64,000 nucleotides of DNA from Betaproteobacteria bacterium (GTDB lineage Bacteria; Pseudomonadota; Gammaproteobacteria; Burkholderiales; Casimicrobiaceae): NCBI GenBank assembly GCA_005882995.1, contig VBCY01000158.1, forward strand, positions 1 through 64,000, read 5' to 3'. The notes beneath the pieces are model-generated. The model was not told the origin of the DNA and did not search any database. It saw only the letters and a list, made by a program, of their open reading frames with translations. This document shows, piece by piece, positions 53,234 through 60,658 of the stretch (within the stretch, counting starts at the first letter, position 1; every line of letters begins with the position of its first letter). The translations under genes were made by a program, and so were the position numbers.

Positions 53234-53989
53234 ATGAAAATCGCAACCTGGAACGTCAACGGCATCCGCGCGCGCGAAGCGCAACTCTGCGAGTGGATAG
53301 AGCGAGACCGCCCCGACGTGGTGTGTCTTCAGGAGATCAAGGCGCGGCCCGACCAGGTGCCGGATCGCTGCAAGCTCTCCGACTACCACGTTTTCTGGCA
53401 CGGCGGCGGCGGTTATTCCGGCGTGTCACTCCACCTTAAGCGCGAACTGCTGGAGGTTCCCGACTTCAGCCATCCACATTTCGACATCGAGACGCGCATC
53501 GTGCAGGTGGCGCTGGGGAATCTAGTGCTTGCCTCGGTCTACGTTCCCAATGGCGGCAAGGACTATGCCGCCAAGATTCGATTCATGACGGATCTCGTTG
53601 CATGGGCGAAGCTACTGCATGACCAGGGCCGGGAGTTGGTGCTCTGCGGCGACATCAACATCGCGCGTGCCGACATCGATGTCCATCCGAGAGAGCGCAA
53701 GGCCGACGTTATCGGCCAGCTCAAGGAGGAACGTGACCTGTTCGAGGCTTTACTCGGCGAGAATCTGGTCGATGTCACGCGCGCCAAGGATCCGGACAAT
53801 GAGCGCCTGTTCACCTGGTGGCCGCCTTGGCGGAACATGCGCCAGCGCAACATCGGCTGGCGCATCGACTACATCCTCGCGTCGCGCGCGATCGCGGACG
53901 GAGCCACCCGCTGCACGGTTCTCACCGACGTCGGCACCAGCGACCATGCGCCCATCTTGATGGACATCGCGTGGCAAGCGGCAGCTTGA
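53234..53989 (+). CDS. xth: exodeoxyribonuclease III
   Basis: 251 residues, full length. Motifs of the EEP family: T-W-N-V-N-G-I-R, L-Q-E-I-K (catalytic Glu34), Y-V-P-N-G, C-G-D-I-N-I-A (Asp/Asn pair) and T-S-D-H-A-P-I at the C-terminus. It cleaves AP sites and removes 3'-blocking groups in base-excision repair. It converges with the aldo/keto reductase gene with 4 bases between stops. Confidence 0.94.
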   Translation: MKIATWNVNGIRAREAQLCEWIERDRPDVVCLQEIKARPDQVPDRCKLSDYHVFWHGGGGYSGVSLHLKRELLEVPDFSHPHFDIETRIVQVALGNLVLASVYVPNGGKDYAAKIRFMTDLVAWAKLLHDQGRELVLCGDINIARADIDVHPRERKADVIGQLKEERDLFEALLGENLVDVTRAKDPDNERLFTWWPPWRNMRQRNIGWRIDYILASRAIADGATRCTVLTDVGTSDHAPILMDIAWQAAA

Positions 53990-56532: not shown

Positions 56533-57306
56533 CTAGCAAGGTTGCGGGGACGCGAAAGCGGCGCTTTCGTCGTGTTCAAAAAAAGCGGCCCCGCAGGGCC
56601 GCTCCTCCTCGCCTACGTCAGCGAATGACATTTGCGCGTGATACTCGGTGCCTTGGAATTCATAGGTCACGTCGAAAGAGCTGGTGCCTCCCGGAACCGT
56701 TGCGCACCGCTCAACGTATGGCGTGCTCTGTGGCTTGCCAGCCAAGAGATCGCCCGTGCCGTTAAGCAGCACCCCTGGAAGCTCCAAGGGACCAACCTGC
56801 TGGCGTTCCATCCAGCAACGCTGTTCTGTTGCACTTCCGATCGGATGCACGGACGTTACGCGCGCCTGGTAGATCTGATCCCCAGGGTTCACGTAGGTTG
56901 TTGCCGGTGCCTGCGCCACGGTTATCGCCGGTGCTGGCGCCACCGTAACTGTCGGCGACACGACCGCCGCCGGGGCTTGGTACTCAACGCGAGCTTCGCC
57001 TACCGGACGAACGGACGAGATTCCTCGCCTCATTTCCATCGACGCAAGCGACGGGTAGTTACCCTGCTGCAGAATTACGCACCGCCCTTGGAAACCGGGC
57101 TTGGAGCACGCTTCCCAACGGCCGCTAGCAACGTTCGCCGAAGTGGCGAGATCATCGAACTGATACATGCTCAGGTCCGAGATTGGTCCGTTGGCCGTCA
57201 GGTACCGCCCGAGATAGCCTTCACCTTCGTAAAACGTAACTTGTGCACCTGCCTGGGTCGCCAACGCAACCCCGGCGACTCCCAGCAACGTTTTCAAGCC
57301 AACCAT
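56533..57306 (-). CDS. secreted beta/gamma-crystallin-like protein, copy 1, with run-on C-terminus
   Basis: 257 residues. Signal peptide 1-22, then one crystallin-like domain: V-T-F-Y-E-G-E-G-Y-L-G-R, then C-x-G-R-C-V-I-L and Y-P-S-L-A-S-M. A Pro/Ala/Val linker and a C-terminal domain (C-W-M-E-R-Q-Q, C-A-T-V-P, V-T-Y-E-F-Q-G) follow. Copies 2 and 3 have a glycine-zipper between these; this copy does not. The last ~25 residues are read through a terminator hairpin, probably because the stop was lost by a frame change at about 56620. GGAGG before ATG 57306. Confidence 0.8.
   Translation of the reverse strand: MVGLKTLLGVAGVALATQAGAQVTFYEGEGYLGRYLTANGPISDLSMYQFDDLATSANVASGRWEACSKPGFQGRCVILQQGNYPSLASMEMRRGISSVRPVGEARVEYQAPAAVVSPTVTVAPAPAITVAQAPATTYVNPGDQIYQARVTSVHPIGSATEQRCWMERQQVGPLELPGVLLNGTGDLLAGKPQSTPYVERCATVPGGTSSFDVTYEFQGTEYHAQMSFADVGEEERPCGAAFFEHDESAAFASPQPC
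56578..56603 (-). terminator. Rho-independent terminator inside the copy 1 reading frame
   Basis: On the minus strand AGCGGCCC, loop of 4, GGGCCGCT, then a run of seven T. It lies before the annotated stop of copy 1 (56533-56535) so part of that frame is downstream of the transcript end. Confidence 0.82.
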
Positions 57307-57470
57307 AATCAACCTCCGAATTTCGTTGCCTCCCACGACAAAATACTAACGCGCGAGACTTGGTAAGGATGTCGGCGCAGCTCGCTAGATTTGTAAGATA
57401 TACACCGACGTTGCGTTACGCTATAGACAGACCTGTAGCACACGCGATCGTCCAGAACCCGGAGAACTTC

Positions 57471-58445
57471 GTGAAGATGATGCCGATGTCCGTTGCACTC
57501 TTGATCGCTCTCGCGCTTCTCTTCGCGCCAGCCGTAGACGCGCAACCGTGGCCGGCTAAACCCGTGAAGATCATCGCAGTGTTTCCTCCAGGGGGCTCGG
57601 TCGACCAGGTGGCGCGTGCGCTGGCGCAACAGATGTCGCTGCAAACCGGCCAATCATTCGTCGTCGACAACCGTGGAGGCGCGTCCGGTTCCATCGGCAC
57701 GGCCGCAGTCGCCAAGGCCGAACCTGATGGCTACACACTTGGCGTCGTTTTCGACACCCACGCGGTGAATCCATCGCTGATTCCGAATCTCCCCTTCGAT
57801 ACGCTCAAGGATCTGACGCCGCTGATGCTGGTCGGTACGGGTGCAATGGCGCTGGTCGCCAACGTCGCTCAACCGTACAAGTCGTTCAAAGACGTCGTCG
57901 CCGCAGCGAAGGCCAAGCCCGGTACCGTCGCCTACGGGACGATTGGCGCCGGCAGTCTCGGGCATCTGACCATGGCCCAGCTCGGCAATCAGCTCGGGGT
58001 GGAGTTCAACCATGTGCCATACCGCGGCGGTGGTCCGCTGATGAACGACGCCATCGGCAACCAGGTACCGCTCGCAATCGGTTCGGTGTTCCTGGTGAGC
58101 CCGCACGTTACCTCAGGACGTCTGCGCGCGATTGCCGTGACTTCGCTCAAACCCGATCCGAGTCTTCCCGGCGCCGAGCCGATCGCCGCGCAAGGCGTCC
58201 CGGGTTTCGAGGCCTACACTTGGTGGGGCGTGTTCGGTCCCGGCAACATACCCGCGCCGCTTGCGAAGCGCATCTATGATGAGCTGACGACAGCGATCAA
58301 CGCGCCGGCAGTGCGGGAAAAGCTGGTCGCGCAGGGCATCGAAGTGAGCGGTGCACCGGGCAGCGAGCTCGATGCGCTGGTGCGCAAGGAGATGGCCCGA
58401 TGGGCGAAGGTCATCAAGGACAACAACATCAAGTCGGGCGACTAA
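57471..58445 (+). CDS. Bug/TctC-family solute-binding protein
   Basis: 324 residues. Signal peptide (1-25, ending V-D-A-Q), then W-P-A-K-P-V-K-I-I-A-V-F-P-P-G-G-S-V-D and G-G-A-S-G-S-I-G, the Bug signatures. These capture carboxylates for tripartite TctABC transporters; no tctA/tctB is adjacent, as is common in Burkholderiales. A GTG at 57471 with GGAG at good distance is preferred; ATG at 57477 is possible. Confidence 0.9.
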   Translation: MKMMPMSVALLIALALLFAPAVDAQPWPAKPVKIIAVFPPGGSVDQVARALAQQMSLQTGQSFVVDNRGGASGSIGTAAVAKAEPDGYTLGVVFDTHAVNPSLIPNLPFDTLKDLTPLMLVGTGAMALVANVAQPYKSFKDVVAAAKAKPGTVAYGTIGAGSLGHLTMAQLGNQLGVEFNHVPYRGGGPLMNDAIGNQVPLAIGSVFLVSPHVTSGRLRAIAVTSLKPDPSLPGAEPIAAQGVPGFEAYTWWGVFGPGNIPAPLAKRIYDELTTAINAPAVREKLVAQGIEVSGAPGSELDALVRKEMARWAKVIKDNNIKSGD

Positions 58446-58481
58446 GGAACCTGTGAATAAGCCCCGCGTGGTCGCGACGGA

Positions 58482-58689
58482 GGCTTTCCGGGAGGAGATG
58501 CGCGAAGCAAGGCGATGCCAATAGCAGGCGCTATTGGCAAGCCGAGCGACAAAGCAGGTCGCCCGGAAAGCCCCGTCCCATCCGGGTTTCGGCGCAATGG
58601 CCTCATCTGCTTTGTTGCGCAGCTTGCGAATAGTACGAACTATTCGCTGCGCCGCGACGCCTCGCATCTGAAACCATTGCGCCAGAAAC
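58482..58689. repeat. paired inverted cruciform elements
   Basis: Two units in opposite orientation. Unit 1 (58482-58572): ends GGCTTTCCGGG / CCCGGAAAGCC, 11 perfect pairs, with an inner hairpin GCCAATAGC-4-GCTATTGGC at 58517-58538. Unit 2 (58586-58689): ends GTTTCGGCGCAATGG / CCATTGCGCCagaaac with one bulge, with an inner hairpin GCGAATAGT-4-ACTATTCGC at 58626-58647. Parts of unit 1 (58537-58557) and unit 2 (58607-58627) are reverse complements at 18 of 21 bases. No gene inside. Nature unknown; resembles a bacterial MITE or REP doublet. Confidence 0.75.
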
Positions 58690-58712
58690 GCGACTCATGT
58701 GGGACTTCTGGA

Positions 58713-58730
58713 TTCCCGCTTGCGCGGGAA
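58713..58730. repeat. short palindromic repeat TTCCCGC-TTGC-GCGGGAA
   Basis: Seven perfect pairs around a 4-base loop within TGGATTCCCGC...GCGGGAATGACG, a type of intergenic palindrome that is dispersed in many betaproteobacterial genomes. Lies 24 bases after the paired inverted element. Confidence 0.6.
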
Positions 58731-58772
58731 TGACGAAGCAGCGCGTCCTCTAGGTACCAACCTCCGGAGACC

Positions 58773-59789
58773 TTAATTCATCGAGGTCGCGCCGGGAAAC
58801 GCCCTGCGGTAGAGCTCCCTATCGATGTACTTCAATGGGTCGTTCAAGTCCCGCTTGGGCTGTCCGTACTTGGAGCGCAACCCGAGCACGACCTTGAAAC
58901 CTTCGACGTCGATCTTGAGATCCCGAGACAACCCGCGCCGTTTGTCGACGAACATCTCATAGGTCTTCTTTGCCAACGCCGGCGTCATGTCACGGTCGTT
59001 GGCCACCAGAAGCGCTTCACAAACATCGCGGTTCTGCGGGTCGTATATCCAATCGATCGCCTCGCGCTCGGCCCGCATGAAACCGATCACCGCCGCTTCG
59101 TTGTCCTTGATCCATCCTCGCATGCCAAATGCGGAGCGTCCCTGATATGCGCCCAGTAGATCGGTCGCGTTGCCAAGCCGGGTGAATCCCTTCGATTCAG
59201 CCTGCAGGTCGAACGGAGAGGAGAGCAGCGTGGCGCTGAATTTGCGATCGAGCAATCCAGCGTAACGCAGGTTGGTGCCGCCGGAGCGAACGTACTTGAC
59301 GTCCGAGTCCTTCATTCCGGCTTTTTCCACCATTTCGCGCAGCACAAAGGCGAAGCCGGTGGTCAGTGCATCGACCCCGAGATCCTTTCCGCGCAAGTCG
59401 CCGATGCTTTTCACCTCAGGCAGCGCGACCAGGTTGAGATTCGCGTCGTCGAAGCCGAGGAATGCCACCAGGTCGGGTTGCACCTTGAGAGGCGCTTCGC
59501 CCTGCCCCTCCTGGTAGGCGACGAGATTGTCGATGGCGCTGGTCGTGATGTCGAAGCGACCTTCAACCAGCCCGGTAATGAGATAGACCGAATTTGGGGT
59601 ATAGCGCAGATTGACATCGACGCCATGCTTGGTGAAAAAGCCTTGGCGCTGCGCGACGAATGTCGGCAGGTTGAAGCCGCCGGCAAAAGTGACGAGGTTG
59701 ATGGTCCGTAGCGACGGCGTCGCCTGTGGTTGGGCAATCGCGCCACCGAATGCGAGCGACAGAGTCAGGACTAGGACAACGCGGATCAT
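58773..59789 (-). CDS. ABC-type nitrate/sulfonate-like solute-binding protein
   Basis: 338 residues. Signal peptide (1-20), then the NMT1/TauA-like fold: F-A-G-G-F-N-L-P-T-F-V-A-Q-R-Q-G-F-F, G-R-F-D-I-T-T-S-A-I-D, L-R-G-K-D-L-G-V-D. No permease or ATPase is adjacent, so it is an orphan binding protein. ATG 59789 begins the signal peptide directly; the longer frame to 59828 adds a polar leader. Confidence 0.87.
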   Translation of the reverse strand: MIRVVLVLTLSLAFGGAIAQPQATPSLRTINLVTFAGGFNLPTFVAQRQGFFTKHGVDVNLRYTPNSVYLITGLVEGRFDITTSAIDNLVAYQEGQGEAPLKVQPDLVAFLGFDDANLNLVALPEVKSIGDLRGKDLGVDALTTGFAFVLREMVEKAGMKDSDVKYVRSGGTNLRYAGLLDRKFSATLLSSPFDLQAESKGFTRLGNATDLLGAYQGRSAFGMRGWIKDNEAAVIGFMRAEREAIDWIYDPQNRDVCEALLVANDRDMTPALAKKTYEMFVDKRRGLSRDLKIDVEGFKVVLGLRSKYGQPKRDLNDPLKYIDRELYRRAFPGATSMN

Positions 59790-59863
59790 TCGAGCTTCTT
59801 CGAGCCGGCGGTGATGCGACGCGGTCACAGCGATATCGAAGTCGAGGGCTGCCGATGTCGATC

Positions 59864-60658
59864 TTATACCCTCGGCTCGCCGCGGCTGTTAACCGGGATG
59901 GTCGGGCCCGGCGCGAAACCCAACTGCGCGCGGTGTGTCGCACCGCGGAAGACGTAGGTGACGTCGTAGTACGCGGGCTGAGCCGAACCCGGCACCGCGG
60001 CGCAGCGCTGCACGTTCTGCGTGTAGGTTTGCGCGCCACGATTGACGTTCGCGCCGACGGCGGCGCCGCCGACGGCGCCGATCGCAGTCGCGACATCGTT
60101 GCCACGCCCGCTGCCGATCTGGTGGCCGAGCACGCCGCCGATCACGCCGCCAATGATCGCCCCGGGAACATTCGGCTGGTTCTGGCTCACTACCTGCTGT
60201 TGCTCCACCCAACAGCGTTGCTCGGGCGGTCCGACGACTGCCCGAACTGCCACGACATCCGCGGTGTACAGTGTCTCCCCATAGTGCGGATAGTAGGAAT
60301 ACGCAGGAGCGGCCGGTGGCGGCGGCGCATATCCATATTGCGGCGGACCGCGAAGCGGACGAACCGACGAGATCTTGTTGTTCATGCCGAAAGAGCCCAG
60401 CGAAGGATACTGACCTGGCCGCAATGTGACGCATCGTCCGCGGAAGTACGCATCCTCACAGACTTCCCATTGCCCGCGCTCCACAACCGCCGAGGAAGCC
60501 CGATCGTTGAAGCCAAAATCCTCCAGGCTTGTGATCGGACCATTGGCGGTAAAGACGCGCCCACGTAAGCCCTCGTGCTCGTAGAAAATGACCTGGGCCG
60601 ATGCTTGTCCGGCAAGTAGCATCACTACGAAAGTGAGCGACGTAATTGGCGTTTTCAT
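59864..60658 (-). CDS. secreted beta/gamma-crystallin-like protein, copy 2
   Basis: 264 residues. Signal peptide 1-21, crystallin-like domain (I-F-Y-E-H-E-G-L-R-G-R, C-V-T-L-R-P-G-Q-Y-P-S-L), Pro/Tyr-rich linker, then a glycine-zipper block of about 40 residues (G-A-I-I-G-G-V-I-G-G-V-L-G-H-Q) and a C-terminal W-V-E-Q-Q-Q ... C-A-A-V domain. Ends V-N-S-R-G-E-P-R-V. ATG 60658 has AAGGGGGT upstream. The glycine-zipper resembles outer membrane 17-kDa antigen-type segments, suggesting surface association. Confidence 0.82.
   Translation of the reverse strand: MKTPITSLTFVVMLLAGQASAQVIFYEHEGLRGRVFTANGPITSLEDFGFNDRASSAVVERGQWEVCEDAYFRGRCVTLRPGQYPSLGSFGMNNKISSVRPLRGPPQYGYAPPPPAAPAYSYYPHYGETLYTADVVAVRAVVGPPEQRCWVEQQQVVSQNQPNVPGAIIGGVIGGVLGHQIGSGRGNDVATAIGAVGGAAVGANVNRGAQTYTQNVQRCAAVPGSAQPAYYDVTYVFRGATHRAQLGFAPGPTIPVNSRGEPRV

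Follow-up and report, generated by a model that had tools for sequence, protein, structure and literature searches.

A MITE with IS5-like ends and a structured two-unit interior that recurs between unrelated ends

In the usual view, a MITE consists of IS ends around disposable filling, and families are mostly defined by ends that match one IS. REP and BIME sequences are intergenic and built of opposed asymmetric hairpins, and we know of none with 20-25-bp terminal repeats or YTAR duplications. According to the cited sections of two papers, IS-derived MITEs (e.g., RUP, with the ends of IS630-Spn1) are shorter than 500 bp, lack a transposase and carry inverted repeats that match those of an IS (PMC10969869, PMC2229807). 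The section cited from the second describes the Caulobacter CIR as a ~110-bp, partly MITE-like sequence with GANTC at a terminal loop, in which two long inverted repeats form two arms and a linker; Correia/NEMIS (105-155 bp) and ERIC (127 bp) appear there as mobile repeats that are structured, lie close to genes and have been suggested to act at the RNA level, with no convergent two-unit core among the features described (PMC2229807).

The element reported here resembles IS-derived MITEs, as far as those sources describe them, in being shorter than 500 bp, intergenic, stably folded and devoid of a transposase, with IS-type ends and a short target duplication. It shares its two-arm layout with CIR, although its family is ~270 bp long with clear ends and duplications as against the ~110 bp given in the part of the source cited, and with Correia/NEMIS and ERIC its character as a structured mobile repeat near genes. 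Unlike the usual MITEs, it belongs to a set in which one interior architecture lies under ~23 end types across the phylum. Our main reading, to which we assign a probability of about 0.9, is that it is a MITE with IS5-family ends and a conserved two-unit module common to those ~23 end types. A description of a convergent two-unit module was not found in the literature outside most subscription journals and bioRxiv.

The window, a stretch of 64,000 nucleotides from contig VBCY01000158.1, contains the element at 58446-58707, and this feature is, about as certainly as sequence can make it, a MITE. It starts directly after the TAA stop codon (58443-58445) of a TctC-family gene (PF03401), which is part of the CTAA insertion target (a YTAR sequence at 58442-58445, no strand assigned). 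The left terminal inverted repeat, GGAACCTGTGAATAAGCCCC, occupies 58446-58465 on the forward strand and is followed by unit 1 (arm Q, forward, 58490-58564), a 35-nt spacer (58565-58599, no strand assigned) that was delimited by sequence and pair geometry and contains the central mini-hairpin GTCCC-ATCC-GGGTT, and unit 2 (arm P, reverse, 58600-58675). The outer arm and a remnant of the right end (..GGGACTT) lie at 58676-58707 on the reverse strand. Comparison with full copies indicated that the right end is short by the terminal 13 bp (GTTCAGAGGTTCC) that other copies possess; the right-hand duplicate of the target is also missing from the window copy. A TctC gene and an NMT1-like gene converge on the copy from either side, and G006 has the same gene end at this locus without the element. 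Adjoining the shortened right end, and outside the element, is a REP-like palindromic repeat (TGGATTCCCGCTTGCGCGGGAATGACG, 58708-58737, no strand assigned) that stands where the last 13 bp of the window copy would be; matches of 25-30 nt to it are many, and occur in at least five of six other same-genus genomes.

Two opposed units had been predicted at 58482-58689, an interval that takes in the interior of the element and misses its ends. Both units are present: a covariance model, R1, matches them on opposite strands with 79.0 bits (E = 2.4e-21) for unit 1 and 80.3 bits (E = 9.6e-22) for unit 2, scores that are not independent because R1 was built partly from the window element's own family. 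Folded alone, 58470-58700 forms two long branched hairpins at -127.8 kcal/mol, compared with -85.8 +/- 4.9 kcal/mol for 200 shuffles, none of which equalled the native fold (z = -8.5). The 9-bp stem and four-base loop described for both units is exact for the apical hairpin of unit 2 (58626-58647, loop ACGA) and one pair short for that of unit 1 (58516-58539, 10 bp, loop AGGC), and the proposed partial reverse complementarity of the units is real, at 74% over 47 nt between 58511-58557 and 58607-58653.

To find copies, we searched the genome from which the window comes (639 contigs, 5.29 Mb). The window element, a member of the ~275-bp family A, has 46 matches there, and nine of these, counting the window copy, extend over the full length at 92-100% identity. 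Both terminal repeats (GGAACCTCTGAAYAAG and relatives) are kept in 14 copies, nine with an exact 4-bp YTAR duplication, three with non-identical YTAR sequences on both sides and two with neither. For a second family, B, there are 20 matches with 93-100% identity that cover at least 211 of 276 nt, and one more at 80%. Its ends, CTAG-GAGCCTGTCGGGCTT, are IS1182-like and unrelated to those of family A, yet the two-unit architecture is identical, and the families share 72-79% identity in a part of the interior, the matches ending before the element ends. Both ends are present in 18 family B copies, with CTAG on both sides in eight of them. An empty site was established for one copy, that on contig C69: G003 and G005, two genomes of the same genus, have the flanking genes directly side by side, and the copy is also absent from same-genus G002, where the intergenic stretch differs. 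Further copies and flanking target-site duplications, which the original prediction had proposed to look for, were both found. Its suggestion of a "MITE doublet" holds as regards the MITE, given the inverted repeats, YTAR duplications, many copies and empty site, but both units lie inside one element, and two MITEs are not involved. Nor is the interior the decayed remains of a transposase gene.

The ends of family A share 14 of 16 and 16 of 19 bases with those of the nearest ISs, which are IS5-family elements of same-genus and same-family genomes. IS5-family elements are present in G006 (ends GGAARCTCTGCAYAAG beside CTAG/CTAA) and G007 (end GGCAACACTGAACAAGTCC), and both transposases score above the NCBIfam IS5 cut-off. 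Searches of the window's own genome with PF05598, PF01609 and end patterns detected no IS with family A ends; an IS1182-family transposase is encoded there, with ends (CAGCCTGTCGGACTTA beside CTAG) that agree with those of family B at 14 of 16 bases. Two of the ~23 end types have been matched, with some mismatched bases, to real transposases. In G007, a complete genome, the end type GGGCSTGTTNACNC occurs almost solely in small elements, as pairs ~270 bp apart, and no IS partner for it was found in that genome; complete genome G057 yielded no match to DDE_Tnp_1 despite three two-ended elements (among L077, L083, L088 and L092). Partners are therefore often absent from the genomes that carry the elements. 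We infer that IS5 and IS1182 enzymes provide mobility in trans: an IS5-family transposase encoded elsewhere would recognise the ends and insert the MITE at YTAR sites. The core stays while the ends, and presumably the transposases too, are exchanged.

R1 was derived from the consensus of 12 units of diverse elements, in which 15 of 21 pairs show double changes. Applied to 40 and then to 47 loci, it gave 74 and 69 unit matches; these 87 loci were chosen among R1 hits, 40 by hand, and are not a random sample. Inverted repeats agreeing at 18 or more of 25 positions bracket 68 of the 87 loci, compared with 2 of 388 control positions, and the model is blind to the ends. The terminal inverted repeats measure 20-25 bp and the lengths of the bracketed elements peak at 266-276 bp. 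Greedy clustering sorted the ends of the 68 loci into 23 clusters at 70% identity and 34 at 78%; shuffled ends reached 72% identity at most in 2000 comparisons. (Single-linkage clustering chained 55 of the 68 into one group and was dropped in favour of the greedy procedure.) Within a single complete genome, G077, the ends are of three or more clearly distinct kinds (L158, L211 and L212/L213), which fall into four greedy clusters.

Beneath this diversity of ends the geometry is uniform. The 87 loci contain 54 convergent pairs of units and no divergent or same-direction pair, with a spacer of 31-38 nt in 40 of the 54; at the 33 loci without a pair within 150 nt, the cause is nearly always that one unit alone exceeded the threshold. 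The centre of the spacer is a mini-hairpin, AACCC-loop-GGG, whose loop is UNCG in 15 and the complement CGNAG in another 15 of 43 oriented elements (11 others could not be oriented). A conserved interior module, common to elements with unrelated ends, is well supported; it consists of two convergent ~75-nt structured units and a short central hairpin.

The model also matches well beyond the window's genome. At E <= 1e-6 it has a match in 51 of 150 genomes sampled within the order and in 33 of 249 sampled within the phylum. Of these 33, seven belong to the same order, six to the same class but other orders, and 20 to other classes; looser cut-offs give 67 of 150 (E <= 0.01) and 50 of 249 (E <= 0.001). 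The stricter value was adopted because a weak match in the window, at 53862-53938 (E = 0.001), looks like chance: it lies within a long coding frame, which we take to be exonuclease-like. Copy numbers per genome are lower bounds, as scoring was limited to 32 candidates per genome in the order survey and 19 in the phylum survey. Among the carriers with names are strain GR16-43, Halomonas sp. PA16-9 and Variovorax paradoxus, and DNA similarity adds Azotobacter chroococcum and a plasmid of Pseudomonas aeruginosa. No element came to light in phages, or in plasmids when these were searched with two of the queries. A single structural model thus finds copies with unrelated ends across Proteobacteria.

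Covariation within the units, another feature that the original prediction had singled out for checking, lies far above both shuffled and slid structures. In the first set of units, double changes occur in 21 of 21 pairs, pairing stands at 88.7% versus 65.9% after shuffling, and the covariation score is 0.509 versus 0.148, with none of 500 shuffles as high and slid structures at 0.03-0.10. The second set, with 69 matches that make 67 distinct rows, has double changes in 20 of 21 pairs and a score of 0.725 versus 0.182. The alignments of both sets were fitted to R1 and lean towards its structure. The sequence is clearly not the single-copy stretch without compensatory changes that the original prediction had set down as its own refutation. 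The units also have conserved foot and internal-loop sequences, and the internal loop between the outer and inner helices exists in two coupled states, CGAA/GACAAAG and AGGC/AACGMCG: CGAA accompanies GACAAAG 17 times and AACGMCG never. These unpaired columns are as conserved as those of the inner helix (means of 0.83 and 0.80 bits).

Location relative to genes is biased. Of 30 copies (those of 33 candidates with sufficiently long flanks), 21 have the end of a long frame no more than 40 nt away, compared with 35 of 97 YTAR controls taken from the window and 13 of 23 CTAG controls, and gene ends lie on both sides of 8 of 30 copies, compared with 2 of 97 and 2 of 23. For family B the values are 13 of 16 and, for both sides, 6 of 16, an excess over the CTAG controls that is less clear. 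A frame of at least 300 codons runs across the joined flanks of 2 of 29 copies (from 32 candidates), as opposed to 39 of 100 YTAR controls and 269 of 500 random sites. The target motif itself accounts for part of the placement at stop codons: YTAR sites often coincide with stop codons, and the majority of surviving copies are therefore found where genes end. The bias exceeds what the motif provides, and survivorship accounts for it as well as function would.

These observations can be read in other ways. Long inverted repeats are corrected by template switching, and an ordinary IS5-derived MITE with a functionless interior could owe its paired changes to that process and its similarity across genomes to descent and horizontal spread. 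A TTGGCAAATGAGGCC-type insert that recurs in unit 2 at L013, L019, L080, L085 and L090 looks like such an event, its ATGAGGCC part being complementary to the opposite GGCCTCAT arm, and in elements of G007 (e.g., L161, L209 and L210) the ends vary between copies and largely match within one copy. Repair of this kind would yield perfect palindromes, however, yet conserved unpaired internal loops persist in two coupled states, and a neutral interior should decay faster than the ends, whereas here unrelated ends share an interior; we therefore regard this explanation as conceivable but unlikely. The persistence of the coupled loop suggests recognition by a protein over mere palindrome repair. A folded RNA was the third option of the original prediction. 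A gene for a structured RNA, or an element for RNA processing at 3' ends, spread by transposases and kept because the RNA regulates neighbouring transcripts in the manner suggested for Correia/NEMIS and ERIC, would account for the strong covariation in both unit sets, for the excess at gene ends and for the frequent UNCG loops or their complement. Rfam 15 gave no match in window positions 57000-60000 at E <= 1 or in 10 related loci at gathering scores, and a scan of 58300-58900 revealed no promoter or terminator pattern. G-T pairs, read from P to Q, outnumber A-C pairs by 100 to 28, but the excess sits in a few columns that R1 fits badly (arm P pair 1 and arm Q pairs 14-15); once these are removed, P has 33:11 and Q 17:12, and the two arms give no single strand. 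An RNA of this sort seems improbable to us, with perhaps one chance in several.

Two further explanations are much harder to sustain. The original prediction had called the sequence "BIME-like," which is apt for the layout of two opposed hairpins. If the resemblance went deeper, each hairpin would be recognised by a REP-associated tyrosine transposase and the opposed pair would be mobile together, as the asymmetric hairpins with their conserved foot and internal-loop sequences and the REP-like repeat beside the window copy might suggest. REP and BIME sequences are short palindromic units with a GTAG-type foot and a tyrosine transposase partner, and DDE-type ends and duplications are not among their features; the present elements have 20-25-bp inverted-repeat ends, YTAR or CTAG duplications, units of ~75 nt and a spacing of 31-38 nt in most pairs, making a BIME identity very improbable. 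The position of the window copy between the converging TctC and NMT1-like genes would suit a bidirectional intrinsic terminator, but 58300-58900 contains no G+C stem with a T-run, the element is mobile, and gene ends flank both sides of family members in 8 of 30 cases only, so that we give this idea hardly any credence.

Returning to a MITE with a conserved module, the filling here is conserved and the ends are swapped, which suggests that the interior, and not the ends, does something worth keeping, and that it carries a selectable function. The module may belong to a phylum-wide, end-swapping superfamily, passed among elements with unrelated transposases because a host or replication factor recognises it and thereby aids persistence or movement; we would put the odds of this a little short of even. 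As to what the module does, the reading that we favour, though with low confidence, is an orientation-independent folded structure, formed at the RNA level or by extrusion of the DNA, to which a host or transposition factor would bind. Since the units converge, either strand reads unit, hairpin, unit, and the structure does not depend on the direction of insertion, as would suit such a folded signal.

Several copies depart from the standard form. L011, L012 and L013 are family A composites of 419-434 bp with a nested insert of ~145 bp in the loop of hairpin 1, and such a composite probably moves as one unit, since L012 carries its own CTAA duplication. Internally deleted copies with exact TTAG duplications are found at L063 (1624-1682, 59 bp), L014 (938-1103, 166 bp), which retains unit 2 only, and L016 (1501-1706, 206 bp). 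A partial copy at L015 (~1501-1660) has a near-identical ~24-bp gene-start sequence on either side, as if a long duplication had accompanied the event.
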